NCBI GenBank assembly: GCA_910579155.1
Contig: CAJTTS010000091.1
Coordinates: 1 to 11,920 of the forward strand
Source of the DNA: an uncultured Oscillospiraceae bacterium
Lineage (GTDB): Bacteria > Bacillota_A > Clostridia > Oscillospirales > Oscillospiraceae
DNA length: 11,920 bases
Direction of reading: 5' to 3'
A program made the position numbers and the translations under genes. The notes under the pieces are model-generated. The model was given only the letters and a program-made list of their open reading frames with translations, was not told the DNA's origin and did not search any database. This document shows, piece by piece, positions 1-11,901 of the stretch (position 1 is its first letter; every line of letters starts with the position of its first letter).

Positions 1-2
1 AC

Positions 3-353
3 AAGGCCCCCGCCGCTCCCGGCGAGAAGCCCAAGGAGGACAAGGCCCCCGCCGCTCCCGGCGAGAAGCCCAAGGAGGACAAGGCCCCCGCCGCCCCCGG
101 CGATAAGACCAAGGAGGACAAGGCCCCCGCCGCCCCCGGCGAGAAGCCCAAGGAGGACAAGGCCCCCGCCGTCCCCGGCGAGAAGCCCAAGGAGGACAAG
201 GCCCCCGCCGCCCCTGGTGAGAAGCCCAAGGAGGACAAGGCCCCCGCCGCCCCTGGTGAGAAACCCAAGGAGGACAAGGCCCCCGCCGCCCCTGGCGAGA
301 AGCCCAAGGAGGACAAGGCCCCCGCCGCTCCCGGCGAGAAACCCAAGGCGGAC
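3..353 (+). repeat. Nine tandem 39-bp repeats encoding KAPAAPGEKPKED
   Basis: Nine consecutive in-frame 39-base units start at 3, 42, 81, 120, 159, 198, 237, 276 and 315. Each encodes KAPAAPGEKPKED or a close variant. Unit 3 has GDKTKED, unit 5 has a valine and unit 9 ends in KAD. Many differences are silent third-base changes. A partial tenth unit (KAPTAGKP) follows. The array may extend left beyond the window. The peptide is proline/alanine-rich with alternating lysine and acidic residues, so a disordered spacer is expected. Confidence 0.95.
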
Positions 354-1835
354 AAGGCCCCCACCGCAGGCAAGCCCACGCCCACGGTTGCCGAGCTGGA
401 GGCACAGGCCAAGTCTGGCCAGCCCATTCTGCTGACAGACCTTGCCAACGCTGAGAGAGCGGAGCGCGAGGCGCAGAAAGGCGGCGCGGCCCCCGGCAAG
501 GGTAAGCCCGATCAATCCGCCGTCCCGGACAAGGACACAGGCGAGGCCCTGACCGCCGCCAAGGAGGGGCCGTCCGGCACTTCCATTACGCAGATTTTCG
601 ATAAGCGCCTCGCGCCCCCGGATGAGGCGTCCCGGAAAACCCTGCCCACGCCGAAAGAGGGCGAGTCCTATTTTATCACCCTCCATCCGGCCTATTTGGA
701 GAAATCCGTGTTCAATAATTTCTCCGTGGACACCGAGAGCGAGAATTTCAAGGAGCTTTTGAAATCTGTGGAGCTGGTAGGCATCAAAGACCCGGTGCTG
801 GCGCGGTTTAACCCGGAGGGCAAGCTGGAAATCCTGTCCGGCCAGCGCCGCCACATCGCCGCCACCATGCTCAATCAGGCTGTCCCCACTATCATCCAGA
901 AAATCGACGATGCGGACGCCAAAATCATTGTTGCGGACGGCAACCTGCACCGTGACAAAATTTCCAGCTATGACCTGTCCCGCGCCCTGCGGATGAAGAT
1001 GGAGGGCATGAAGCAGAAAGCAGGCCGACGCAAAAAGGGCTACTCTGCCAACGAACTGCAAAGCGACGCGAAGCTGGCGCAGGAAATGGGTATGACCGTT
1101 TCCAAGCTCAACCGGCTGATCCGTATGTCTGAGGCGGTCAAGGGTGTGTGCGACCTGGTTGACGAGGGCAAGCTCACCATTTCCGTTGCGGCGGAAATGT
1201 CCGCGCTGAAGCCCAAGACCCAGGAGTCCGTGCTGCACCTGCTTGACCTGGGCTATAAGGCCACCAATGAGCGTGTCTCCCGCATGAAGAAAGCCGAGGG
1301 CGGCGGGCAGAAGCTGGACGAGATGGCTCTGCGGAGCATTTTGGATGACAAGGACATCGCGCCCAAGCAGCAGGAGGCCCCCGCCGCCCCCACTCCCGGC
1401 GCGGCCCCGGAAGCCCCCGGTGCGGCTGTCGGCCAGCCGCCCATCCCCGCCTCTCCCGACGTTCCCGCTGCCCCGGAACCCCCTGCCGCCCCGAATACTC
1501 CCGCCGCTGAGGATGTTCCCCCGTGGGAGGAGCCGGGAAAAGGCCCCGTCCCGGAGCCGGAGGCCGGACAGCCTGCTCCTACCCCTGGCGCCCCCGCCCC
1601 CGACACTCCCGCGCCGGAAAAAGAGGACGATCCGCTGAAAGGGCCGCAAGAGCGCCCGGAAGTCACCAAGGTGATTTTGACCGGCGACCGCCTCCGCAAG
1701 TATTTCCCCGATGTGTCCATGACCCCCCGCGAGATCGAGGAAAGCGTGTACTCCGCGCTGGAGGAGCGCCGCCAGCGGCAGTTGAAAGAGCAGCAGAAAG
1801 CCACCATTTTCAAAAGGGGCGGGCCGTCCCATTGA
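3..1835 (+). CDS. ParB-family partition/regulatory protein with N-terminal 13-residue tandem repeats (5' end missing)
   Basis: The frame is open from the left edge to the TGA at 1833-1835, so the start lies outside the window; a TTG at 696 is only an internal codon. Seen in order: nine 13-residue repeats (3-353), a charged linker (354-650), a ParB N-terminal domain (about 655-1000) with the signature SGQRRHIAA at 837-863 and a box-III-like ADGNLHRDKIS at 933-965, a helix-turn-helix region (about 1071-1140, KLAQEMGMTVSKLNRLIRM), a second proline/alanine-rich linker (about 1369-1635) and a basic C-terminal segment. ParB/KorB/Spo0J proteins bind palindromic DNA sites for partition or, in KorB, for repression at many promoters. 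A ParA gene probably lies upstream (inference). The two disordered linkers make it far longer than the usual 280-350 residues. Family is confident; partition versus regulation is not decided. Confidence 0.85.
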   Translation, partial: KAPAAPGEKPKEDKAPAAPGEKPKEDKAPAAPGDKTKEDKAPAAPGEKPKEDKAPAVPGEKPKEDKAPAAPGEKPKEDKAPAAPGEKPKEDKAPAAPGEKPKEDKAPAAPGEKPKADKAPTAGKPTPTVAELEAQAKSGQPILLTDLANAERAEREAQKGGAAPGKGKPDQSAVPDKDTGEALTAAKEGPSGTSITQIFDKRLAPPDEASRKTLPTPKEGESYFITLHPAYLEKSVFNNFSVDTESENFKELLKSVELVGIKDPVLARFNPEGKLEILSGQRRHIAATMLNQAVPTIIQKIDDADAKIIVADGNLHRDKISSYDLSRALRMKMEGMKQKAGRRKKGYSANELQSDAKLAQEMGMTVSKLNRLIRMSEAVKGVCDLVDEGKLTISVAAEMSALKPKTQESVLHLLDLGYKATNERVSRMKKAEGGGQKLDEMALRSILDDKDIAPKQQEAPAAPTPGAAPEAPGAAVGQPPIPASPDVPAAPEPPAAPNTPAAEDVPPWEEPGKGPVPEPEAGQPAPTPGAPAPDTPAPEKEDDPLKGPQERPEVTKVILTGDRLRKYFPDVSMTPREIEESVYSALEERRQRQLKEQQKATIFKRGGPSH

Positions 1836-2860: not shown

Positions 2861-2908
2861 GTCAAAGCGGAAATGCGTCTCACCGTGAGACGCATTTCCA
2901 GCTTTGAC
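2861..2908 (+). repeat. Palindrome family copy 1, with extended arms
   Basis: The 27-base core at 2871-2897 has 13-base arms around a single central C (core GCGTCTCACCGTGAGACGC). In this copy the pairing continues outward: GTCAAAGCGG (2861-2870) matches CC-A-GCTTTGAC (2898-2908), giving 23 paired positions per side with one bulged A. No T-run follows, unlike copies 4 and 5. It lies between the PP-loop gene and the DUF3560 gene, ending 26 bases before the latter's start. Confidence 0.9.
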
Positions 2909-2934
2909 GCCGGACAGCAGGAAAGGATGATTAT

Positions 2935-3762
2935 TTGAACGATTACGAACAGAAAAAGCAAGATCGTATTGACCGCCTCCGCGCAAGGGCGGATAAGGCC
3001 CGCGCTGAGAGTGGCGCCCTGTTCCAGCAGTCTACGGATATGGCCTCCGTCATCCCGTTTGGTCAGCCTGTACATGGAGCCGCAGACCGGCGCTACCGCG
3101 AAAAAATCGGCAAAAAAATGGAACAGTCCATCGCGGCATCCGATAAGGCTGACTATTACGAGCGTAGGGCGCAGGCGGCAGAAAACAACACTGCCATTTC
3201 CTCTGATGACCCGGAAGCCATCACCAAGCTAACAGAGAAGCTGGAGGGGCTGAAAAAGGCGCAGGAGTTTATGAAAGCAATTAACGCTCACTATCGCAAG
3301 CATGGAACCTGCCACGGCACAGAGGGCTTGTCTGAAGAACGGGCCGAGGAACTGGATCAGGATGTGAAAAACGGCCCCTCGTGGGTAACTGTTCCATTTT
3401 CTACTTATTCCCTCTCCCTCAATAATAAGGAAATCCACCGTATCCAAGACCGAATCACAAAGCTGACCGAGGCAAAGGAGCTGGGCTATACCGGCTGGGC
3501 GTTTGAGGGCGGCAGAGTTGAGGCCAACGAGGACAAAAACCGGCTGCAAATCTTTTTTGATAAAATCCCCAGCGAGGAAGTCCGAAAAGAGCTGAAAAGC
3601 TGGGGCTTTCGCTGGGCACGGAGTGAGGGCGCATGGCAGCGGCAGTTGACGGACAACGCCATCTACGCCGCCAGCCGGATCAAGGCCATCCAGCCCACGG
3701 ACGGCACCGACCCTGTGAAAATCCAGCCGAAACGGAAGAAGCAGGGCGGCCCCACAAGATAG
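2935..3762 (+). CDS. DUF3560 domain-containing protein
   Basis: A 275-residue soluble protein starting at TTG, placed by an AAAGGA motif about ten bases upstream; no ATG in frame fits better. The N-terminal region (about residues 10-90) is helical and charged, with the stretch VIPFGQPVHGAADRRYREKI that I recognise as typical of DUF3560 proteins of Firmicutes and Actinobacteria mobile elements. The middle is coiled-coil-like (TEKLEGLKKAQEFMKAINAHYRK). The C-terminal part contains LQIFFDKIPSEEVRKELKSWGFRWARSEGAWQR, a motif also found in other element-borne proteins. The tail is basic. It is the first gene of a compact operon, 11 bases before the DUF3846 gene, and sits just after a copy of the palindrome family. 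Molecular function is unknown; a role in establishment or antirestriction is inference from context only. Confidence 0.8.
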   Translation: MNDYEQKKQDRIDRLRARADKARAESGALFQQSTDMASVIPFGQPVHGAADRRYREKIGKKMEQSIAASDKADYYERRAQAAENNTAISSDDPEAITKLTEKLEGLKKAQEFMKAINAHYRKHGTCHGTEGLSEERAEELDQDVKNGPSWVTVPFSTYSLSLNNKEIHRIQDRITKLTEAKELGYTGWAFEGGRVEANEDKNRLQIFFDKIPSEEVRKELKSWGFRWARSEGAWQRQLTDNAIYAASRIKAIQPTDGTDPVKIQPKRKKQGGPTR

Positions 3763-3773
3763 GGGGCGCGAAG

Positions 3774-4184
3774 ATGAATGTTTTAGTTGTGGAACCCGGT
3801 TTTTTGCCCTATGAGCAGGAGATCAACGGCCTCTCTGATATGGAAAAAATCGTAGGCGGGCCTATTGAGGCCCTTTATCCATTTCAAGAAAATGTCGCTG
3901 TTGTCACCAACGCGAATGGTGCAAACAACAAGCTGGAGTTTAACCGCAGTATCCCGGAACGAAGTTACGGCGGCGTGTTCGGCACGTTCTTTGTGTGCGG
4001 CCTCGGTGAAGAAACCTTTGCCTCCCTCACTCCAGAACAGATGACCACATATAAGGAGCGTTTCAAAAAGGCGGAAGTCCTGGTACTCATGCTGGGTGAT
4101 ACGCCGGTTATAGTGGAAGAAACCGCAAAACGAAAGCATCATTCCGGCAAACTGAAGCGTCCGCGTAAGCCTAAAAAGAGGTGA
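3774..4184 (+). CDS. DUF3846 domain-containing protein
   Basis: A 136-residue protein starting MNVLVVEPGFLPYEQEINGLSDMEKIVGG, the characteristic opening of DUF3846 proteins (VLVVEPG, then KIVGG.I.ALYPF, then LEFNR). The frame is open further upstream, but that extension overlaps the DUF3560 gene and looks like out-of-frame shadow. The ATG at 3774 is preceded by AGGGGG (3761-3766) and begins the family-conserved strand, so I choose it. The C-terminal 15 residues are strongly basic (KRKHHSGKLKRPRKPKKR). DUF3846 proteins are common next to ArdC-like and MobC/relaxase genes on clostridial elements, and their role is unknown. It is separated from the following ArdC-like gene by six bases, so the two are probably translationally coupled. 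Confidence 0.8.
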   Translation: MNVLVVEPGFLPYEQEINGLSDMEKIVGGPIEALYPFQENVAVVTNANGANNKLEFNRSIPERSYGGVFGTFFVCGLGEETFASLTPEQMTTYKERFKKAEVLVLMLGDTPVIVEETAKRKHHSGKLKRPRKPKKR

Positions 4185-4190
4185 CACGCC

Positions 4191-5135
4191 ATGTCCTATG
4201 AAACCGATGAGCGTGTGGCCGAGCTGACAGAACGGCTGGAAAACGGCGTAAAGGAAATGTATTCCAGCGGCAAATATGAGCAGTACATTACCTCAATGGC
4301 AAAATTCCATCAGTACAGTTACAGAAATGCACTGCTGATCCTCTTTCAATGTCCCCATGCGTCTCAGGTTGCCGGATTTGGCACATGGAAAGAGCTGGGG
4401 CGGCAGGTGAAGAAAGGCGAAAAGGGCATCCAGATTTTAGCGCCCTGTAACTTTCAGCGGGTAGTTGAACGAGATAAGATCGACCCCAAGACCGGGCGAA
4501 CGCTATACGGGCCGGACGGAAAGCCCCTCACCGAAAAGGAGTATACCGCCCCTAACCGATTTAGGATCGCTCATGTTTTTGACCTGAGCCAGACTGAGGG
4601 CCGGGAACTGCTTCCCGTTGCACCCCCCGCGCTGACCGGCGATGTGGAGGACTATACCGGCATCTATGACCGGCTGGCCGCTATTTCCCCGCTGCCAGTG
4701 GTGCAGGAGGACTTTCAGCAGAGTGCATACGGCTATGCCAGCCTTGCTGAAAACAAGGTTGTTGTCAAGCCCGGTTTAAGTCAGGTGCAGACGATCAAGA
4801 CGCTGGTACATGAAATTGCCCATGCGAAGCGCCACCAGCCGGGGGCTTTTCTGGAGGAACAGACGCCGGCACAGAAGCGGCAAAATGAGATAGAGGCCGA
4901 AAGCATCGCCTATGTTGTCTGCCAGCATTTTGGTATCGACACCTCGGATTACTCCCTGGCCTATATCGCCCAATGGAGCAAAGACGAGGAATTGACTGTG
5001 TTAAAGGCTTCTCTTGATGCAATCCATTCTACCGCCGGGGAAATCATAGACGCCATCTCCCCACCCCCGCCGAAACTGGAGCGGCAGTTGTCTCAAGCCC
5101 CAGAAAGGAAACCAAAACGAGCAAAACGAAAGTGA
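4191..5135 (+). CDS. ArdC-like antirestriction protein (ssDNA-binding domain plus zincin metallopeptidase)
   Basis: This 314-residue protein has the two-part architecture of the ArdC family. The N-terminal part (about residues 5-130) contains YSYRNALLILFQCPHASQVAGFGTWKELGRQVKKGEKGIQILAPC, the ssDNA-binding (DUF1738-like) signature, followed by VFDLSQTEG. The C-terminal part contains the zinc-protease motif HEIAH (207-211) and EIEAESIAYVVCQHFGID (233-250), where acidic residues can supply the third ligand. ArdC proteins bind single-stranded DNA and help incoming conjugative DNA escape restriction. The ATG at 4191 follows AGAGGTGA at 4177-4184, which overlaps the stop of the preceding gene. The tail is basic and proline-rich. 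The motif set is intact, so it should be functional. A second, degenerate relative is encoded at 10054. Confidence 0.88.
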   Translation: MSYETDERVAELTERLENGVKEMYSSGKYEQYITSMAKFHQYSYRNALLILFQCPHASQVAGFGTWKELGRQVKKGEKGIQILAPCNFQRVVERDKIDPKTGRTLYGPDGKPLTEKEYTAPNRFRIAHVFDLSQTEGRELLPVAPPALTGDVEDYTGIYDRLAAISPLPVVQEDFQQSAYGYASLAENKVVVKPGLSQVQTIKTLVHEIAHAKRHQPGAFLEEQTPAQKRQNEIEAESIAYVVCQHFGIDTSDYSLAYIAQWSKDEELTVLKASLDAIHSTAGEIIDAISPPPPKLERQLSQAPERKPKRAKRK

Positions 5136-5146
5136 GGCAAAACACA

Positions 5147-5470
5147 ATGGAAAACACCAGCAGCATCCCGGAGCGTATGCGGGAAATTGAACTTTTTGGC
5201 GTTCCCGCCTTGTTTACCGAAAATCAGATCCCGCCGGACGGCATTTATCCCGGTATGTCCCTCTATGAGCTGCAGGGCGGGGACGGCCGGTTTATGGCCT
5301 CCGTCCTCACCCCCGTCCCTATCCCGGTGCTGGAGAACGGCCCCCGCGAGTTGGAACCGGGCGATCTGGTGATGGACACCGGGGCCGGGTATTACACCCC
5401 CTCCGAGTTTGAGGAAAAATACCTGTGCCCGGAGTTTGACGGAATGGATCGGTATGGAAAAGATGATTGA
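5147..5470 (+). CDS. Small LPD28-like domain protein
   Basis: A 107-residue acidic protein. The stretch EIELFGVPALFTENQIPPDGIYPGMSLYELQG resembles the LPD28 domain (large polyvalent-protein-associated domain), which is usually one module in very large phage or element proteins but also occurs alone. I choose the ATG at 5147, preceded by GAGG with about nine bases of spacing, over an in-frame GTG at 5132 that overlaps the ArdC-like stop. The remainder (LEPGDLVMDTGAGYYTPSEFEEKYL) is soluble and has no catalytic motif that I can see. It lies 11 bases after the ArdC-like gene in the same operon. Domain assignment is from memory of the pattern and moderate; function unknown. Confidence 0.7.
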   Translation: MENTSSIPERMREIELFGVPALFTENQIPPDGIYPGMSLYELQGGDGRFMASVLTPVPIPVLENGPRELEPGDLVMDTGAGYYTPSEFEEKYLCPEFDGMDRYGKDD

Positions 5471-6047
5471 CATTATCCCTTTTTTGGCTGGGATTGTGGA
5501 AAAAAACACCGCAACTCATCAATCAGACTTTCTCCTTGACAGAAAAATCCTGCAAGGAGCTACCTGGCAACCCCATCAGGAGAGCCGCACATTTCTCTGG
5601 ATGAGCCGCCCCTGTGGTACGAATTGCGTATTGGAGGCAGAAGTTTTTCAACGAGAAACAGACGCGCACATCGTCTGGACGCACTATGAGTATGACGCTG
5701 ATCGCATTAAGGCATACCGTGTCATCGTTGCCCCCGAACGCGCTGCCGGGCTTGTGCTGGGAAAAGTCCAACCCTTGAATTACAAAGAACAGGTACAGCG
5801 CGTCAAGCAAAAGGCGCTCCATGTTCAATCTGTAAAATTGCAGTTTGAGGACGGGGAACAGTACAATCTGTCCCACGAGGACTACAAACGGCAAATTCAC
5901 GGCTTGATTGACGTACATGGCAGGGTGGAAACCATCTGCTTTGTGCCCGAAAATGAGCATGAGCTATTTTGTACGCTCCAAACAGAGCGTGCTATCTCCA
6001 CCCGCAAAAAGAAGTCTCCCCATAAGAAGAAACCGCCTACCCGGTAG
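5454..6047 (+). CDS. Hypothetical protein of the accessory operon
   Basis: A 197-residue protein I do not recognise. The start is taken at ATG 5454, which follows a GGAATGGA sequence and overlaps the previous gene by 17 bases; the open frame extends further upstream (5409) and an ATG at 5463 is an alternative. It has no signal peptide or membrane segment. The body alternates predicted strands and helices (for example AYRVIVAPERAAGLVLGKVQPLNYKEQ) with several aromatic and cysteine residues (FLWMSRPCGTNCVLEAEVF). The C terminus is very basic (STRKKKSPHKKKPPTR), a feature shared with its operon neighbours and compatible with nucleic-acid binding (inference). It closes the operon before a hairpin-rich gap. 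Confidence 0.7.
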   Translation: MEKMIDIIPFLAGIVEKNTATHQSDFLLDRKILQGATWQPHQESRTFLWMSRPCGTNCVLEAEVFQRETDAHIVWTHYEYDADRIKAYRVIVAPERAAGLVLGKVQPLNYKEQVQRVKQKALHVQSVKLQFEDGEQYNLSHEDYKRQIHGLIDVHGRVETICFVPENEHELFCTLQTERAISTRKKKSPHKKKPPTR

Positions 6048-6056
6048 CACCCACAG

Positions 6057-6088
6057 CGGACAGCGCCGCCGAAAGGCGGTGCTGTCCG
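6057..6088 (+). terminator. Strong GC-rich hairpin with GAAA tetraloop
   Basis: CGGACAGCGCCGCC (6057-6070) pairs with GGCGGTGCTGTCCG (6075-6088) across a GAAA loop: 14 pairs, including one G-U. It starts nine bases after the preceding stop codon. There is no T-run after it, so it would be an atypical terminator; mRNA 3'-end protection or a relaxosome element are alternatives. Confidence 0.5.
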
Positions 6089-6097
6089 AGCAAGTAT

Positions 6098-6122
6098 GTC
6101 ATTTGGTAGCACACCAAATGAC
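6098..6122. repeat. Perfect 10-bp inverted repeat (candidate oriT or operator)
   Basis: GTCATTTGGT (6098-6107) and ACCAAATGAC (6113-6122) are perfect reverse complements around AGCAC. It is followed by a third hairpin, AGGGGGC-GCA-GCCCCCT (6130-6146), then an A/C-rich tract. An inverted repeat beside a GC-rich hairpin on an element that carries MobC and a relaxase is compatible with an origin of transfer, but I cannot identify a known nick sequence, and the position is not directly upstream of mobC. Confidence 0.35.
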
Positions 6123-6129
6123 CCTTGTT

Positions 6130-6146
6130 AGGGGGCGCAGCCCCCT
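6130..6146. repeat. GC hairpin AGGGGGC/GCCCCCT
   Basis: Seven-base perfect arms AGGGGGC (6130-6136) and GCCCCCT (6140-6146) enclose GCA. It is the third hairpin in the 6048-6261 gap. It is followed by TTAAAACCCCC rather than a T-run, so it is not a canonical terminator on the + strand. Confidence 0.5.
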
Positions 6147-6164
6147 TAAAACCCCCGCCTACGG

Positions 6165-6191
6165 AAATACGTCTCACCGTGAGACGTATTT
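6165..6191. repeat. Palindrome family copy 2 (compensatory variant)
   Basis: Thirteen-base arms surround a central C. Relative to the other copies, one G has become A in the left arm and the facing C has become T in the right arm, so the core reads ACGTCTCACCGTGAGACGT and pairing is kept. Two further T residues follow (five T in a row, 6189-6193). It is 20 bases upstream of copy 3. Confidence 0.9.
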
Positions 6192-6211
6192 TTCAGCGCA
6201 CTTTATACGGA

Positions 6212-6236
6212 AATGCGTCTCACCGTGAGACGCATT
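6212..6236. repeat. Palindrome family copy 3
   Basis: Twelve-base perfect arms around a central C (core GCGTCTCACCGTGAGACGC). Outside the core, CGGA (6208-6211) can pair with TCCG (6238-6241) with one bulged A, as in copy 1. It ends 25 bases before the ATG of the LPD25-like gene, with the AAGGAGG ribosome binding site in between. Confidence 0.9.
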
Positions 6237-6261
6237 ATCCGGCACCAATAAGGAGGCAAAC

Positions 6262-7227
6262 ATGGAACCCAATAGCCGAATGAGCGAAATCACCGGCAAT
6301 CTCAAAAAGGATGTGAAAGACCTCCTATCAGAGAGCGCCAACATCGTGACCGGATTCTTTAAGCGCGGGCTTTGCACCGTGCGGGCTGTGGCCGACAAAT
6401 GGAAAACCTTTGCACAGAGCATTTCCAGCGCGGCGGACGAACTGATGAAGCCGCCGTTTGTCGAGGGGCCGGAGGCCCCGACTGCCAGTCTCCACCCTGC
6501 CGCCGAACCCGTTGTTACCGTTATGGAGAGCCGGGATCGGGATTTTCCCGTGGGAAAACAGATGACATTATCGGAAGCCAACGAATATGTACGCCAGATG
6601 GACGCCCGCCGCCATGAGGCAAAGGGCGCTCCCCATACGGTCAAAGTCAAAGTTGACTATATGTGGGGAGAACGCTGTGACCGCTACTGGCTCCCCCTGG
6701 AGATCGGATCGGGCCGGGGCGGGCTACTGCAGCAGATGGAGCAGCTCCTGGCCTACTACCGCGCCGACCCGAAGCGTATCATGCAGGAGCTTGATTTTCC
6801 CAAAGAAAACGGAAAATACCGGGAAGATTTTCGAGCGTTCTTTCTGCCGTTTGTGCAACAGAGCATTGACGATCTGCATAACAATCTGCTGCCCTATTTC
6901 CGCAACCACTGCAATATTACAGAAATGAAACGGACAGCGGAGGCCCTTATGCCAGCGTTGGGCGAAAACGGACAGGCACAGTATAAGCAGAAGCTGGAGA
7001 ACAAGGCCGCTGCGCTGCGGCAAAAGGTGAACAGCCTGGAGGTGAAGTTGTCCCCCAGGCAGGAGCAGCGCAGACCGGATGCGCCCCAGCGAGCCGCACA
7101 GGATAACCCCCCACAGGCACGCCCGCCGGTCAAAGTACGGCTGGAGCAGATCAAAGCGAGGCAGGGCGCACAGGCCAAGCAGCCGGACAGGGCGCGTCAT
7201 GCTCCCAGCCGTCCAAAGCAGAAATAA
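6262..7227 (+). CDS. LPD25-like domain protein
   Basis: A 321-residue protein with a clear AAGGAGG ribosome binding site before ATG 6262. Residues about 86-170 (ESRDRDFPVGKQMTLSEANEYVRQMDARR, then VKVKVDYMWGERCDRYWLPLEIGSGRGGLLQQMEQLLAYY) match my recollection of the LPD25 large-polyvalent-associated domain. The N-terminal 65 residues are helical (NLKKDVKDLLSESANIVTGFF). Residues about 215-265 form a likely coiled coil, and the last 55 residues are a basic, proline/glutamine-rich tail (PQARPPVKVRLEQIKARQG). No enzyme motif or membrane segment is visible. Two palindromes (copies 2 and 3) lie directly upstream, so it probably starts a new transcription or regulation unit. Function unknown. Confidence 0.75.
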   Translation: MEPNSRMSEITGNLKKDVKDLLSESANIVTGFFKRGLCTVRAVADKWKTFAQSISSAADELMKPPFVEGPEAPTASLHPAAEPVVTVMESRDRDFPVGKQMTLSEANEYVRQMDARRHEAKGAPHTVKVKVDYMWGERCDRYWLPLEIGSGRGGLLQQMEQLLAYYRADPKRIMQELDFPKENGKYREDFRAFFLPFVQQSIDDLHNNLLPYFRNHCNITEMKRTAEALMPALGENGQAQYKQKLENKAAALRQKVNSLEVKLSPRQEQRRPDAPQRAAQDNPPQARPPVKVRLEQIKARQGAQAKQPDRARHAPSRPKQK

Positions 7228-7267
7228 CAGGCCCCCAAACTTATGAGACATACTCATTCGCTATTGC

Positions 7268-7296
7268 TTGACAGCGCACCCTAATTCGGTTATTTT
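7268..7296 (+). promoter_or_regulatory. Sigma-70/SigA-type promoter
   Basis: TTGACA (7268-7273) is a perfect -35 box, followed after 17 bases by TATTTT (7291-7296) as a -10 box. It lies in an AT-rich gap 39-67 bases upstream of the ATG at 7335. This is the most consensus-like promoter I found in the window. Confidence 0.6.
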
Positions 7297-7318
7297 ATAG
7301 TTTAGAGAAGTAACTATA
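7296..7318. promoter_or_regulatory. Inverted repeat overlapping the start of transcription (candidate operator)
   Basis: TATAGTT (7296-7302) and AACTATA (7312-7318) are perfect reverse complements separated by nine bases. They overlap the end of the -10 box and the expected +1 region, and end seven bases before the GGAGGG ribosome binding site (7325-7330). A dimeric repressor could bind here (inference). Confidence 0.45.
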
Positions 7319-7334
7319 GAAGCTGGAGGGCAAT

Positions 7335-7718
7335 ATGGATAATCAACTATTTTCCCACATCACCAGTGACTACTACACCCGTCACTATGAACTTGATCCC
7401 AAATTCACAAATGGCTTGCAAGTCACCGTTTATGCGGAGTGCTCCCCTAACACAACAGGTATGAACGGCCATTATTATGCCCTTGATTTATATTTTTCCG
7501 CAGATGAAATTCCTGTCCGCGATCATATTGTAGGAGTGTCTTTTGGCGAAGGGCAAATGGACAAGCACCGTATGGATGCGGCGATAGATGGCTGGGTAGA
7601 ACAGATTGTAGGTGAAGAAACTTTCCCCGTGTTCCTAAAAGACTACATTAGGAAAGAAAAAATGTGGGAAGATGCCCAAACCAACGAATATTTAAGCGGC
7701 ACAGATGATGCTGAATAA
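7335..7718 (+). CDS. Hypothetical protein, separately promoted AT-richer insert
   Basis: A 127-residue acidic protein with a good ribosome binding site (GGAGGG) before ATG 7335. I do not recognise the family. It is rich in aromatic and acidic residues (SDYYTRHYELDPKF, GHYYALDLYFSADEIPVRDHIVGVSFGEGQMDKHRMDAAIDGWV) and looks like one small globular alpha/beta domain without signal peptide or membrane segment. Its codon use is clearly AT-richer than the mobilisation genes around it. It has its own promoter and putative operator and sits alone between the LPD25-like gene and mobC, followed by a palindrome copy with a T-run. These signs suggest a separately regulated cargo gene acquired later than the backbone (inference). 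Confidence 0.75.
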   Translation: MDNQLFSHITSDYYTRHYELDPKFTNGLQVTVYAECSPNTTGMNGHYYALDLYFSADEIPVRDHIVGVSFGEGQMDKHRMDAAIDGWVEQIVGEETFPVFLKDYIRKEKMWEDAQTNEYLSGTDDAE

Positions 7719-7738
7719 AGCTACCAAGTGAATACCGC

Positions 7739-7769
7739 AAAAATGCGTCTCACCGTGAGACGCATTTTT
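7739..7769 (+). repeat. Palindrome family copy 4, with T-run (possible terminator)
   Basis: Fifteen-base perfect arms (7739-7753 and 7755-7769) around a central C, core GCGTCTCACCGTGAGACGC, with A5 on the left and T6 on the right. It could act as a bidirectional intrinsic terminator. It follows the 7335 gene by 20 bases and precedes the mobC start by 22 bases, with the AAAGGAGG ribosome binding site between. Confidence 0.9.
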
Positions 7770-7791
7770 TGTTGCCCGAAAGGAGGATGCC

Positions 7792-8100
7792 ATGCGGAAA
7801 CGTGAAAAATTTATCGGTTTGTGGCTGAGTGACGCAGAGTACCGGCACCTGCTGAAACAATGCGCCCTGTCCGGCCTCAACACCAGCTCCCTGCTCCGGC
7901 ACAGCATCATGGGCGTCAATATCCAGCCGCGCCCGCCCGATACCTACGCCGCCCTGCTGCGGGAGCTGTCAGCCATCGGCAATAATGTGAACCAAATCGC
8001 GTATTGGGCCAATGCCACCAAGGGCATCGGCAAAGCGGAGATTGCGGAAGCCGCCGCCCTTGTCCGGCAGGCGTGGCGCATGGTAAAGGAGACGCTGTAA
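7792..8100 (+). CDS. mobC: MobC-like relaxosome accessory protein
   Basis: A 102-residue protein with the MobC pattern: a basic N terminus (MRKREKFIGLWLSDAEYRHLLKQCALSGLNTSSLLRHSIMG) typical of the ribbon-helix-helix-like part, then LLRELSAIGNNVNQIAYWANATKGIGKAEIAEAAALVRQAWRMVK, where the GNNVNQIA segment is the MobC hallmark. MobC proteins bind near oriT and help the relaxase open the DNA strands. The ATG at 7792 has a strong AAAGGAGG at 7779-7786. The stop codon abuts the GTG start of the relaxase with no spacing, so the two are co-translated. Length is normal for the Firmicutes form. Confidence 0.88.
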   Translation: MRKREKFIGLWLSDAEYRHLLKQCALSGLNTSSLLRHSIMGVNIQPRPPDTYAALLRELSAIGNNVNQIAYWANATKGIGKAEIAEAAALVRQAWRMVKETL

Positions 8101-9477
8101 GTGGCCTACGATAAGATCATCACCCTGCACGGGCGCATGGATCACTGTATTGACTATGTGCTGAACGAGGAAAAGACCGGCCTCGCCGCTGCGCTGGCCT
8201 ATGCGGAGAACCCATCCAAGACACATCGGCTTGTGACAGGCATTAACTGCGACCCGGAAACGGCGCTGTCGGATATGCGTTCCACCAAGAAACGCTGGGA
8301 CAAAAAAGGCGGCGTCCTGGGCTACCATATCATCCATTCCTACGCCCCTGGTGAGGTAACGCCGGACGAGGCCCACGCCGCCGGAGTGGAATTTGCCCGC
8401 CGCCTGCTGGGGGATAAATACGAGGTTGTTGTGGCGACCCACGTTGACCGCGACCATCTGCACTGTCACATCGTTTTCAATTCCGTTTCCTTTGTGGATG
8501 GAAAGAAGTACCGTAGCGACTTCCAAAGCTATTTTGGAGATTTGCGGGGCACCTCCAACGAAGTGAGCCGGGAGCGCGGCCTGTCGGTGATTGAGCCAGC
8601 GGGCCACGGAAAGCATTATACAGAGTGGACGGCGGAAAAGCAAGGGCGAAAGATTGTGCAGGGCGGCGTAAGACAGGACATTGATGCAGCTATCGCGGAG
8701 AGCTTCACCTTTGACTCCTTCCTCGCCACCCTGCGGCGGCAGGGCTACACCATTAAATATGGCTCGAATGTGAAGCATACCACCGTCCAGCCCCCCGGCG
8801 GGAGCTATGTGTTCCGTCTTGACAACCTGGGCGCTGGCTACACCGAGGCCCACATCCGGGAACGGCTGGCGGCAGCGCGGAGAGGTGAACCCTATGAAAT
8901 GCCAGCGCCGCTGTCAACAGCACCCATACCGCCGGTACGTCCCATCCCGCAAGTGCGGAGACGCTATACCGTCCGATGGGGCACTGTCCCCCGCCAGCCG
9001 CGCCGGAAGCTGCGCGGTTTTCGTGCGCTCTATATGCGCTACCTATATATGCTCAACAGCTACCGAAAGCCCCGGCGCACTCCGCCGCCCGCCGCCGTCC
9101 GTAAGGAAGTGGCGAAGCTCCAACGGTATGAAAAGCAGTTTCGTTTTCTTCTGCAATACCGCATTGACACGGACAGCCAGCTTGCCATGCTGGGCGACGC
9201 CCTGCAAGGCCAGATCGACCTGCTGGTTGACTATCGCAGGGAGTTGTACGAGGCGCGGCGCGAGGGCCGGGACGTGGAGGCAGAGCTGGAAACCGTCAAT
9301 GGCAAGCTGCGCTCCACCCGCCGCGAGCTGACGATCTGCCGAAAAATTACGGAGGATATTCCGAAAATCAGGGATCGGGAGCAGCTCATGCGGCAGGAAG
9401 AACGGAGCAGCCATAAGGCCGTCCGGGATCGAACGGACGAGCAAGTAAGAAAGGAGAAGAAAGGCAAATGGATGTAA
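8101..9477 (+). CDS. MobA/VirD2-type (MOB-P) relaxase
   Basis: This 458-residue protein has the relaxase nuclease motifs in order. Motif I is around DHCIDYVLNEEKT with Tyr19 the likely nucleophile that attacks DNA at oriT. Motif II is around GYHIIHSYAPGEVTPDEAHAAG (about 74-95). The histidine motif is HVDRDHLHCHIVFN (114-127), with His121, His123 and Asn127 in the HxHxxxN arrangement for metal binding. SRERGLSVIEP follows near 155. Residues about 320-450 are charged and helical, likely a coiled coil for partner binding. It starts with GTG immediately after the mobC stop, and its end overlaps the next gene by ten bases. It cleaves one strand at oriT and pilots it to the recipient. The sequence resembles relaxases of Tn1549/pCF10-like Gram-positive systems. 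All key residues are present. Confidence 0.92.
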   Translation: MAYDKIITLHGRMDHCIDYVLNEEKTGLAAALAYAENPSKTHRLVTGINCDPETALSDMRSTKKRWDKKGGVLGYHIIHSYAPGEVTPDEAHAAGVEFARRLLGDKYEVVVATHVDRDHLHCHIVFNSVSFVDGKKYRSDFQSYFGDLRGTSNEVSRERGLSVIEPAGHGKHYTEWTAEKQGRKIVQGGVRQDIDAAIAESFTFDSFLATLRRQGYTIKYGSNVKHTTVQPPGGSYVFRLDNLGAGYTEAHIRERLAAARRGEPYEMPAPLSTAPIPPVRPIPQVRRRYTVRWGTVPRQPRRKLRGFRALYMRYLYMLNSYRKPRRTPPPAAVRKEVAKLQRYEKQFRFLLQYRIDTDSQLAMLGDALQGQIDLLVDYRRELYEARREGRDVEAELETVNGKLRSTRRELTICRKITEDIPKIRDREQLMRQEERSSHKAVRDRTDEQVRKEKKGKWM

Positions 9478-10049
9478 GTGCTGAAGCTGCCGATGTGGTA
9501 GTCCGAGAGAGCTTACAGGCAACCGAGGCGGCGGCGAAGCTGACCCTGGAGGGCATGAAAAATGTCGCCGCCCTGCTGCTGGCGATTGCCAAGCAGGACA
9601 TGAAAGTTGTGGGCCAGACCACGGCCAAGCGGCTGGCACGCGACCCCGCCCCCGCCGTCGTTATCCCCATCAAGGCCGAGGACAAGGCCAAATTCCAGAA
9701 GCTGGCCAAGGAGTTTGGAGTCCTCTATTTTTTCGCACAGAAAAAGGGGAACGACAACGGTATGCTCAATGTTGTTTCCAATGAGAACTACGCCGCCCTG
9801 CTTAACGCCATCATGCAGCAGTTGGGCTACCCCATCCCCCAAAAGGAACAGGAGGAGCCAAAAAAAGCGAAGTCCCGCGCTCCACAAAAGAAATCCTCGC
9901 CAGAGCGCGGGAATGGCTTGAAACCGTCTCAGACGACTGCGGCGGCTGTTGAGCAGGACTCCCCCACGAAAAAGAAGCTGGATCAGTTACAGCGGCTGGC
10001 GGCACAGTCCCGCCCTGGGCCGGAAAAGACGAAAGGAAAGGTAAGGTAA
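9468..10049 (+). CDS. PcfB family (DUF3801) relaxosome/transfer accessory protein
   Basis: A 193-residue protein whose first 125 residues fit the PcfB/DUF3801 pattern: an N-terminal helix (VVVRESLQATEAAAKLTLEGMKNVAALLLAIAKQ), a basic linker, then VIPIKAEDKAKFQKLAKEFGVLYFFAQKKGNDNGMLNVVSNENYAALLNAIMQQLGY. The C-terminal 70 residues are lysine- and proline-rich and probably disordered. In the pCF10 system PcfB assists the relaxase PcfG and contacts the coupling protein, so a similar role is likely here (established for that family, inferred for this copy). The ATG at 9468 overlaps the relaxase stop by ten bases and is preceded by AAGGAGAAGAAAGG within the relaxase gene, showing tight coupling. 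The next gene follows after four bases. Confidence 0.85.
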   Translation: MDVSAEAADVVVRESLQATEAAAKLTLEGMKNVAALLLAIAKQDMKVVGQTTAKRLARDPAPAVVIPIKAEDKAKFQKLAKEFGVLYFFAQKKGNDNGMLNVVSNENYAALLNAIMQQLGYPIPQKEQEEPKKAKSRAPQKKSSPERGNGLKPSQTTAAAVEQDSPTKKKLDQLQRLAAQSRPGPEKTKGKVR

Positions 10050-10053
10050 CAGT

Positions 10054-10947
10054 ATGCCGAGTTTAAGTGAAATCCTCAATTCCAAGGCTGAGAGCAAGCA
10101 GCAGCGCACCGAGAGCCGCAGGGCCGAGCGTGAGCAGTTGTCCCAAATGCGGGACGCCTCCCTTACGGCCATCACCACGACCCCGGAGTGCTACACGCAG
10201 TACTTGGTTTTGCAGGGGGACAACATCGGCCTGAGCGCCGGGAACATCGCCCTGGCCTTGTCCCAGATGGTGAACCCCACCAAGATCGGCACCACCGACT
10301 TCTGGCACAAACAGGGCCGGTATGTGATGGACGAGGAAATGAACAAGGGGGCCTCGGTTTTCGTCCCGCCCCGTGACCGGAACTTCCGGGGCTACCTCAT
10401 GGGCAGCTACTACGATGTGAGCCAGACCACCGGCAGACCGCTGAAAGAGAGTGTTCCGCTGGCCGAGGGCAGCGAGAGGATGAACACGGCCTTTGCCGCC
10501 CTGTTGGACGCCGCCCCCGTGGGCTTTGTTGAGAACACGAAGCTGGATGCGCCCGCCCGCTACAATGAGCGCAACTGCGTTTTGGAGATCAACACGGAGT
10601 ACAGCGCGGGGCAGGTGTTCGCCGCCCTCGCCACCGAGATCAGCTACGCCCGCATCCATGACCGGGGCATGAACCGGGACTATGACCGGGAGTCGTTTCA
10701 GTTGACGGCGGAGAGCATCGGATTTATGGTTTGCCGCCGTTTTGGGGTGGACTGTCCTGTGCCCGATACGGCGGGCGTGGAGAGGTTTTACGGTTACTAC
10801 ACGCCCGATGAGCGTGGCAAAGCCCTGGACATGATGCGGCAGACCGCCCGGAACATGGGCGACACCGTGGAGCGGAGCATCCAGCCCCGCCAGCAGGAGC
10901 ATACCGCCAGCCGGGGCAGCAATAACCGGCAATACGGCAGGCGGTAA
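10054..10947 (+). CDS. ArdC-like protein with a degenerate zincin site
   Basis: A 297-residue protein starting four bases after the PcfB-like stop. Seen by eye, it follows the ArdC order: LALSQMVNPTKIGTTDFWHKQGRYVMDEEMNKGASVFVPPRD (about 66-108) parallels the ssDNA-binding block of the 4191 protein, YYDVSQTTGRPL (119-130) parallels its VFDLSQTEGREL, and FQLTAESIGFMVCRRFGVDC (215-234) parallels EIEAESIAYVVCQHFGID. At the expected HExxH position the sequence is TEISY (194-198): both histidine ligands are lost while the glutamate remains. It cannot be a normal zinc protease, though the ssDNA-binding part may work. The N-terminal 30 residues are very basic and glutamine-rich. Its position inside the relaxase block suggests a role with transferred single strands (inference). 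Confidence 0.72.
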   Translation: MPSLSEILNSKAESKQQRTESRRAEREQLSQMRDASLTAITTTPECYTQYLVLQGDNIGLSAGNIALALSQMVNPTKIGTTDFWHKQGRYVMDEEMNKGASVFVPPRDRNFRGYLMGSYYDVSQTTGRPLKESVPLAEGSERMNTAFAALLDAAPVGFVENTKLDAPARYNERNCVLEINTEYSAGQVFAALATEISYARIHDRGMNRDYDRESFQLTAESIGFMVCRRFGVDCPVPDTAGVERFYGYYTPDERGKALDMMRQTARNMGDTVERSIQPRQQEHTASRGSNNRQYGRR

Positions 10948-10963
10948 TCAGGCGGCACGATCC

Positions 10964-11112
10964 GGGGTATGCCCCCAGCCCTGCGGATTTTACACCGTCG
11001 TTCTTTGTCCGTCAAGGCCAAGACAAGCCGCGCCGCCCGCCAGGGGCGGTCGGCGCGGGCCTTGACTGCCAAAGCCCGCCGGTGCTTTTTGTAGCCAAGG
11101 GGGGCATACCCC
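10964..11112 (+). other. Nested inverted repeats in a long gene gap (possible structured RNA)
   Basis: The gap 10948-11286 has no gene I can support. In it, GGGGTATGCCCCC (10964-10976) is the exact reverse complement of 11100-11112. Inside this, GTCAAGGCC (11011-11019) pairs with GGCCTTGAC (11058-11066), and within that CCGCGCCG (11028-11035) pairs with CGGCGCGG (11051-11058, sharing one base with the previous arm). The outermost stem ends exactly where an intrinsic terminator begins (11113). A weaker hairpin AAAGC/GCTTT with T5 lies at 11071-11090. The outer arms can also fold locally, since GGGG and CCCC face each other within each arm. RNA gene, leader or transfer-related DNA are all possible. 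Confidence 0.4.
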
Positions 11113-11136
11113 AAAAACCGGCTGAAGCCGGTTTTT
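11113..11136 (+). terminator. Intrinsic terminator, A-tract/T-tract hairpin
   Basis: AAAAACCGGCT (11113-11123) and AGCCGGTTTTT (11126-11136) are perfect reverse complements around GA. The T5 (with A5 on the other side) makes it a plausible bidirectional terminator. It lies 166 bases after the degenerate ArdC-like stop and likely ends the mobilisation transcript or the structured RNA. Confidence 0.7.
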
Positions 11137-11200
11137 GCTACTATGGGGAGACGGGCGCGTTCCCCTGAAAAGCACAGCGGCTGACGGTGGCAGGGATGGC

Positions 11201-11216
11201 GGGCGCGTTCGCGCCC
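11201..11216. repeat. Short GC hairpin GGGCGCG/CGCGCCC
   Basis: Seven-base perfect arms at 11201-11207 and 11210-11216 with TT between. It lies 10 bases before palindrome copy 5. It has no T-run and may only reflect high GC content. Confidence 0.3.
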
Positions 11217-11226
11217 CGGAACCGGC

Positions 11227-11257
11227 AAAAATGCGTTTCACGGTGAGACGCATTTTT
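11227..11257 (+). repeat. Palindrome family copy 5 (inverted centre, T-run)
   Basis: Fifteen-base arms (11227-11241 and 11243-11257) around a central G, core GCGTTTCACGGTGAGACGC. It has one G-T (G-U in RNA) pair; the central base is G rather than C, so this copy reads as the family in the opposite orientation. It has A5 on the left and T6 on the right like copy 4, and lies just upstream of the ribosome binding site of the methyltransferase gene. Confidence 0.88.
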
Positions 11258-11286: not shown

Positions 11287-11901
11287 ATCAATGTAGCCTA
11301 CAATATGGACTGCACCGGCGTTTTGTGGGAGCTGCCGGAAAATGCCTTTGACCTGGCTGTTGTCGATCCACCATACGGCCTCAATATCCGGGGCGATATG
11401 GGGCGGCGCAAGGGCAGGCCCCGCAAATACAAGCAGGTATTTTGGGACGCTAAACCGCCTCCCCCGGAGTATTTCCGGGAGCTGCGGCGCGTGTCCAGGC
11501 ATCAGGTAATTTGGGGGGCCAACCACTTCATCAGTATGCTCCCCGCCGCAGACAGCCACTGCTGGCTGTGCTGGGACAAGAAGTATTCCCCGGAAGTCTC
11601 CTTTGCGTCCTTTGAACTGGCCTGGACGAATTTCGACCTGCCCTGCAAGCGGATCGCGCTGTCATCATTTCAACCGGGCCGCATCCACCCCACGCAGAAG
11701 CCCATCGGCCTCTATGCCTGGATATATGCCCTTTTCGCTAAACCGGGCGACAAAATTCTGGATACCCATTTAGGCAGCGGGAGCAGCCGGATCGCCGCCT
11801 ATGACGCTGGACTGGACTTCACCGGCTATGAGATAGACGGCGACTATTTTGAAGCGCAGGAAAAACGCTTTGCCGCCTATGTACGAGAACACCCACATTA
11901 A
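11287..11901 (+). CDS. Orphan N4/N6 DNA methyltransferase (beta-class order), no conventional start
   Basis: The product has the catalytic motif IV as DLAVVDPPYGLN near the N terminus and the SAM-binding motif I near the C terminus (PGDKILDTHLGSGSSRIAAYDAGLDFTGYEID), preceded by HPTQKPIGLYAWIY. The order IV then I defines beta-class amino-methyltransferases (N6-adenine or N4-cytosine). At about 204 residues it is compact. The first in-frame ATG (11305) is 29 bases after the strong ribosome binding site AAAGGAGG (11268-11275) and would remove the NINVAY strand, so initiation more likely occurs upstream. No ATG, GTG or TTG is available in frame there; ATC at 11287 is the best-placed codon. The out-of-frame ATG at 11291 is immediately followed by TAG. 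No restriction enzyme lies beside it, so it may protect element DNA in new hosts (inference). Confidence 0.82.
   Translation: MNVAYNMDCTGVLWELPENAFDLAVVDPPYGLNIRGDMGRRKGRPRKYKQVFWDAKPPPPEYFRELRRVSRHQVIWGANHFISMLPAADSHCWLCWDKKYSPEVSFASFELAWTNFDLPCKRIALSSFQPGRIHPTQKPIGLYAWIYALFAKPGDKILDTHLGSGSSRIAAYDAGLDFTGYEIDGDYFEAQEKRFAAYVREHPH

Follow-up and report, generated by a model that had tools for sequence, protein, structure and literature searches.

Dispersed palindromes of a clostridial conjugative element as probable operators of its ParB-like protein

Introduction

The stretch of DNA analysed here, called the window, comprises 11,920 nucleotides from an uncultured Oscillospiraceae bacterium (contig CAJTTS010000091.1). 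It carries five copies of one palindrome, and the gene set around these sites is that of a conjugative element. What do the palindromes do, and which molecule reads them? A preliminary description of this DNA regarded them as a shared control element at which transcripts might start, stop or attenuate, and drew no link to the ParB gene found at the window's left end. We propose that the element encodes one trans-acting DNA-binding protein for which they serve as dispersed operators, and that this protein is most probably its ParB, a relative of Noc, ParB and KorB; we put the probability of this reading at roughly two in three. To our knowledge, the silencing and joint switch-on of dozens of transfer genes in large clostridial integrative and conjugative elements (ICEs) is largely an open question.

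Results

All five palindromes were recovered where they had been reported, the first one extending over 2869..2899 instead of 2871-2897 (Table 1). The core matches 5 places in the window at up to 3 mismatches (10 strand matches), and the chance expectation from 200 shuffles has a mean of 0.04 and a maximum of 2. As described before, the window copies lie outside the supported genes, and each of them, or the pair at 6165 and 6212, precedes the ribosome-binding site of the DUF3560, LPD25, MobC/NikA or methylase gene.

The site is a palindrome of fixed size, 27-31 bp, with the form AAATGCGTCTCAC-S-GTGAGACGCATTT; in its type I version, a predicted ParB target, it reads AAATGCGTCTCACCGTGAGACGCATTT in full. 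Site statistics were drawn from 124 independent flanking contexts. Most loci were retrieved via an exact 17-mer, and conservation is therefore selection-biased at distances 1 to 8 and unbiased at 9 to 15. Conservation of the half-site GTGAGACGCATTT extends to distance 13, in part to 15, and is down to background at 16. No pairing of the outer arms was found past distance 15 in these contexts, and the central base is G in 61 and C in 60 of them.

Such palindromes could act as RNA hairpins, i.e., as bidirectional terminators, attenuators or mRNA-stabilising stems between cistrons. Sites 4 and 5, taken individually, do have A-runs before and T-runs after the stem, and many copies lie between co-directional genes. 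As a class, however, the sites lack the directional T-tract after the stem that is expected of intrinsic terminators: in the 51 contexts with a clear gene direction, downstream T-richness equals upstream A-richness (3.53 each) and the central base is unoriented relative to the gene (C27, G22, T2). Among one-sided changes at distances 1-10, wobble pairs are not preferred (14 of the G-T wobble type and 11 of the A-C type, by our own sums). Some copies have asymmetric arms, e.g., AAATCTCAC paired with GTGAGACGC, and asymmetric GTGAGATTT halves occur; pairing stops at the fixed arm, Rfam gave no match for the sites, and the concerted half-site switches per element reported below are unexpected of RNA hairpins. 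A terminator scan that returned none of the five sites was given no weight, since its stem rule probably absorbs the T-run. Symmetry, fixed extent and the absence of strand asymmetry therefore favour a double-stranded DNA site. We rejected RNA hairpins and terminators as a class and consider them very improbable, and the action on transcripts suggested in the preliminary description was not borne out.

Of 34 close pairs of sites (up to 80 bp apart), 30 have a spacing of 34-36, 45-47, 57-58 or 68 bp, as for proteins bound on one face of the DNA. The 45-47 bp pairs at window positions 6165-6236 and in L057, L066, L068, L076 and L110 combine one site with GCGT arms and a partner with ACGT arms.

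Exact matches to the 17-base core comprise 3 loci on viral contigs and at least 120 genome-contig stretches, mostly labelled Oscillospiraceae or other Clostridia. Excluded before counting were the 3 viral loci and 12 from genomes, for the most part single hits from other phyla; these 15, from other taxa or without outer arms, are L001, L002, L003, L006, L011, L026, L037, L059, L062, L069, L079, L089, L091, L097 and L111, of which L011 and L097 bear the labels Clostridiales and Oscillospiraceae. Within 1.16 Mb of fetched loci, matches at up to 3 mismatches amount to 317 places against 1.0 in arm-shuffled controls; the loci overlap, leaving 243 distinct places, and exact matches are enriched by retrieval.

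Random or chromosome-wide occurrence, which the preliminary description had named as grounds for abandoning a control role, was not what we found. The exact core is present in 8 of 250 genomes of the family and, in 12 genomes read whole, its copies are mostly clustered. The 5.1 Mb genome G004 holds 15 of its 16 copies inside 61 kb, the sixteenth being on the contig of its second ParB ortholog; all 5 copies of G001 fall inside 19 kb and all 5 of G002 inside 7.5 kb; 8 of the 9 in G006 share one contig, those of G003 and G012 occupy two contigs each, and G010 has one copy. The examined copies sit in conjugative or mobilizable elements. Repetitive extragenic palindromes (REP) are likewise short, repeated and mostly intergenic, but they occur in many copies over the host chromosome, whereas the present sites occur in few genomes of the family and gather in mobile elements; a REP-like chromosomal repeat was thus rejected.

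Elements with orthologs of the window's ParB carry private versions of the half-site: GTGAGAC, GTGAAAC, TTGAGAC or TTGGGAC. A blind search for clustered near-palindromes found families of at least 3 copies in 9 of 14 ParB-ortholog loci. Type I, ATGCGTCTCAC-S-GTGAGACGCAT, occurs in G004, G006, G007 and G225; type II, ATGCGTTTCAC-S-GTGAAACGCAT, in G184 (ParB 55% identical); type III, ATGCGTCTCAA-N-TTGAGACGCAT, in G074 (ParB 37%); and type IV, ATGCGTCCCAA-S-TTGGGACGCAT, in G782, G939 and G914 (ParB 38-42%). The pattern derived from these families detects sites in 16 of 16 ParB-ortholog loci, window included, and none in block shuffles; 13 of 15 other regions have no such site. One half-site dominates within each element. 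The G184 locus has 25 type II copies at up to 3 mismatches, all at 17.6-64.8 kb of the 80 kb fetched and adjoining a recombinase-like frame, and no type I core at up to 1 mismatch; at the same threshold the cores of G004 number 14 of type I and 2 of type II. Recognition-helix residues of the ParB proteins differ between types, with too few independent switches to assign bases to residues. Among 16 further groups, mostly of more distant long ParBs, palindrome families were found in 8, some with 3 members only; TTGAGGGG-type sites occur in G001, one of them 50 bp before that element's ParB gene. The 8 groups without a family include a locus with a ParA-ParB pair.

The versions differ, but the places are often kept. 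Relative to open frames called with our own simple gene caller, the 124 contexts divide into 51 tandem gaps, 12 divergent and 19 convergent gaps, 27 positions inside frames and 15 contig edges. Sites matching the element's type were found 29-102 bp ahead of parB in 9 of 11 loci (29-48 bp in 8 of those) and 29-68 bp ahead of mobC in 9 of 12 elements, distances of 29-50 bp being typical for both genes; they also precede virB6 in 4 of 6 and prgI in 3 of 6 loci where the respective gene was found. No type-matched site was seen ahead of the relaxase gene (except one counted with mobC), virB4 or unk10054. A small module separates the site from parB in G184, and a TA-rich stretch often follows the site at parB, with no firm -35/-10 pair. 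The idea of a shared control element with conserved placement is thus supported for parB and mobC and in part for virB6 and prgI, together with element-wide switching of the half-site in step with the ParB lineage. The frequent retention of a site at orthologous places, despite sequence changes that follow the element, is the strongest argument that each element has one trans-acting reader.

The preliminary description also expected no copies inside genes. That is true of the window and fails in part in relatives: one copy lies within a 325-amino-acid frame of G004, and G184 has six copies at 123-bp spacing within a single frame. Only 9 of the 27 in-frame copies are in frames longer than 200 amino acids; many others are probably in spurious frames.

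Which protein is the reader? The window's ParB has an N-terminal ParB domain (PF02195) above cut-off, and the sequence of its core matches Noc and Spo0J. The AlphaFold model of this core (predicted local distance difference test score 87.6) matches Noc, ParB and RK2 KorB with template modelling scores of ~0.3 to 0.6, which we take to reflect a different domain arrangement, and aligns with Noc, ParB and KorB over the helix-turn-helix part. HTH_ParB is above cut-off in 4 of 7 full relatives, and below it in the three closest to the window and in the window frame. SGxRRH and NxHR are invariant in 14 ParB sequences; they differ in detail from the canonical cytidine triphosphate (CTP) motifs. At an ortholog threshold of E ≤1e-35, ParB and the exact site are each present in 8 of 250 family genomes, and together in 4 (0.26 expected; Fisher p 2.9e-5). 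The other four ParB-positive genomes have clear variant families (G184, G074) or single or few copies, variant or degenerate (G164, G194). The proposal of ParB as the reader also relies on the type II half-site being equal to the chromosomal parS half-site.

Ortholog frames span 405-854 amino acids by our caller, some perhaps cut, and 3 of 7 full orthologs scanned have two ParB_N stretches. Window positions 1-400 encode a repeat linker of the ParB made of 39-bp DKAPAAPGEKPKE-like units, and the G004 ortholog (L127:16181-18583) has a long repeat linker flanked by two ParB_N domains. The ParB frame of G164 (L153:9467-15976) loses ParB likeness past about residue 166 of the core, runs on to 2169 amino acids and looks fused or truncated.

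The sites could instead be operators of another element protein, in the first place MobC, a NikA-like ribbon-helix-helix protein common to conjugative and mobilizable elements. Its placement relative to the sites, given above, fits, and its association with site genomes is significant (p 7e-5). Exact copies (5 in G002, 3 in G008, 2 in G009) and near-exact ones surround a MobC 85-92% identical to that of the window, and none of the window's other genes adjoins it. In G002 and G009 the presence of RepA_N and a serine recombinase was confirmed. The draft genomes of G002, G008 and G009 contain no intact ParB ortholog, with a decayed fragment in G002, and the three elements may be mobilized by a helper. 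Against MobC stand the spread of the sites over 50-60 kb, while NikA/MobC proteins are known to bind at the origin of transfer (oriT), and the half-site, which resembles parS and no MobC site that we know of; moreover, a site at parB but not at mobC is seen in two elements of type III and one of type IV. We regard MobC or another such protein as an unlikely reader. The site-bearing element of G002 (L134/L135) also carries genes for VanY, D-Ala-D-Ala ligase, alanine racemase and a two-component system. No viral relatives of MobC were found.

A centromere-like role, in which the sites would act in partitioning the excised circle by means of a host ParA and not in transcription control, would suit the ParB family of the candidate reader, as well as the copies in coding frames, of which the six in G184 recall plasmid sopC. 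The mobilizable element SGI1 provides a precedent for parS-like sites, according to the excerpt of PMC10954446. Yet no ParA-like Walker motif (KGGxGK[ST]) was seen in 16 fetched ParB loci, partial and 3-80 kb long, so that the ParA gene beside parB of a ParABS system is missing from them; this speaks against ordinary partition. The regular placement just ahead of gene starts does so too, and we judge a centromere-like role quite improbable.

The coordinates of sites and genes in the window are collected in Table 1. Other window genes encode a PAPS-reductase-like protein, DUF3846, an ArdC-like protein, LPD28 and DUF3801. No plasmid relatives of window positions 6062-6262 were found by blastn.

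Table 1. Palindromic sites and main genes of the window.
Feature	Position	Strand	Remarks
Palindromic site 1 (type I)	2869..2899	.	centre 2884; perfect arms; 51 bp ahead of the DUF3560 gene start
Palindromic site 2	6165..6191	.	centre 6178; ACGT-type arm variant, perfect arms; first of pair, spacing 46 bp
Palindromic site 3 (type I)	6212..6236	.	centre 6224; perfect arms; second of pair, upstream of the LPD25 gene
Palindromic site 4 (type I)	7739..7769	.	centre 7754; perfect arms; 38 bp ahead of the mobC start
Palindromic site 5	11227..11257	.	centre 11242; one GTTTCAC half, arms with one mismatched pair; upstream of the DNA methylase gene
ParB-like gene	3..1835	+	proposed reader of the sites; frame open at left window edge; PF02195; matches Noc/Spo0J by sequence and Noc, ParB and KorB by fold
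DUF3560 gene	2935..3762	+	downstream of site 1
Hairpin-rich stretch	6090..6160		beside sites 2 and 3; presumed from sequence to be a possible place of oriT
LPD25 gene	6262..7227	+	downstream of sites 2 and 3
mobC (NikA-like)	7792..8100	+	downstream of site 4; alternative candidate reader
MobA/VirD2-like relaxase gene	8101..9477	+
N6/N4 DNA methylase gene	11305..11901	+	downstream of site 5

Discussion

Our best reading is a KorB-like system in which an ICE-encoded ParB would act through up to ~25 dispersed sites. A ParB dimer would bind the outward half-site N-TG-RR-AC-GCATTT and repress its own promoter as well as the promoters of two modules, MobC/relaxase and secretion. Autoregulation and coordinated repression of this kind, as for KorB, are suggested by the sites ahead of parB, mobC and secretion genes. 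The integrated element would thereby be kept quiet and then derepressed as a unit. ParB may also load at the sites as a sliding clamp that coats the element: sites inside genes, such as the six in G184, and between converging genes suggest a further role of this kind. For mobilizable elements without this ParB, a co-resident element would supply the ParB that recognises their sites, and they may eavesdrop on it.

Several observations weigh against this reading. All genes of an element co-diverge, so co-divergence alone cannot single out ParB. MobC is associated with site genomes, and mobC is present in site-bearing elements that lack a ParB ortholog; sites without a close ParB ortholog occur in G001, G026, G040 and G214 as well. 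Copies within genes or between converging genes do not suit a simple promoter operator, and the 200 bp upstream of parB have no site in G004C15 or G184. The blind search missed 5 of the 14 loci (G004C15, G003C14, G010C22, G194C37, which is 3 kb, and G164C1), and G164C12 has two weak pattern matches only. Many close pairs are inherited at one place, and the 13 distinct spacings, taken alone, give only p 0.04 for helical phasing with an 11-bp period. The null of the blind search was shuffled DNA only (no family in 10 trials with one 20-kb stretch), and other palindrome families (e.g., CGAGTTTTGCTTCGCAAAACTCG) crowd the region beside the type IV element of G939 (L171:783-13209); a palindrome family alone therefore proves little. 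Finally, types I-IV have an odd centre and so do not match the canonical 16-bp parS, TGTTTCACGTGAAACA, which has no central base.

The operator OB of KorB has one central S base in its consensus, occurs at multiple sites and controls transfer genes; the extra central base of our sites, unlike parS, may be likened to it. KorB of RK2 is a ParB-fold protein with several operators that acts on promoters from distal sites, as the excerpt of PMC11790492 has it. Similarly, the relatives studied here have several odd-centred palindromes across the element, one of them at the ParB-type gene (the window does not include the start of parB). Differences are the clostridial integrative element, the 27 bp site with GTGARACGCATTT halves and the absence of ParA from the fetched loci. 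Compared with parS and the Noc-binding site, read by Spo0J-ParB and Noc, the outward half-site GTGAAAC of type II is identical and has the same polarity, and the protein core is closest to Noc, whereas our sites have the extra central base, a longer half-site with GCATTT and up to ~25 copies across one element. Chromosomal parS itself was rejected as an explanation because it lies elsewhere in the same genomes: at up to 1 mismatch, all 14 genomes tested carry 1-4 copies, with an exact match in 11 of them, and these copies and the sites are on different contigs.

For BisD of ICEclc, we know of no element-wide family of sites. Like the present ParB, it is a ParB-like regulator encoded by an ICE, as far as the excerpts of PMC7423338 and PMC12704722 go; the latter, a 2025 survey, also describes, in its excerpt, orphan ParB proteins as often linked to mobile elements. 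SGI1 resembles our mobilizable elements in that it bears sites of its helper, which the ParB of an IncC plasmid reads (PMC10954446, in excerpt), but there the system comprises two sites and ParABS, while here no ParA was seen and the helper's ParB would be the presumed reader. Specificity switches between ParB and Noc have been described (PMC7383237, in excerpt). Our searches of the open-access literature, judged by titles and abstract openings, turned up no description of such site families in clostridial ICEs.

More tentatively, and with somewhat less than even odds, we hypothesize that clostridial ICEs each have a private "ParB code": an orphan ParB and its own parS-like sites (up to ~25) would mark the whole element as self, ParB clamps would coat the element and silence or activate it as a unit, co-residents would not cross-regulate one another, and ParB-less mobilizable elements would tap the code of a helper. 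At least 4 and probably at least 7 half-site specificities would belong to it (GTGAGAC, GTGAAAC, TTGAGAC, TTGGGAC, TTGAGGGG and further families). With a candidate reader in view, such a set of dispersed operators opens coordinated ICE control to testing and provides a natural series of ParB-site specificity pairs for studying the evolution of DNA recognition. It also offers a sequence key to which mobilizable elements, including the one with VanY and D-Ala-D-Ala ligase genes, may be wired to which helper ICE.

Some further palindromes and neighbouring sequences were noted. Genome G215 was dropped as a MobC-positive, palindrome-free control: it contains a small family of another type and a 33% ParB. 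Another ICE family (the nested element of G004, L126/L127; L183, L187, L196, L190 and L198) has its own dispersed palindromes CTTTGGGACA-NNN-TGTCCCAAAG, which in G004 share a contig with type I sites. An IMG/VR phage contig (L002:74-5738) carries six exact CGTCTCACCGTGAGACG palindromes without CATTT arms, at least 4 directly ahead of ribosome-binding sites, and its record has no ParB_N match. At L136:15354-16965, an element with a DDE (PF01609) transposase lies exactly within one palindrome and splits it; CTCACGGTGAG is repeated at either flank, which would fit insertion targeted at the palindrome. A conserved stretch, TACTTGCGTCGGCTATGCGTCACAGCGTAGGACGCC or a close variant, lies 134-155 bp from a site at L133:9317, L134:17472, L136:17494, L139:7526 and L140:10008, with a recombinase gene nearby in L134 and L136.

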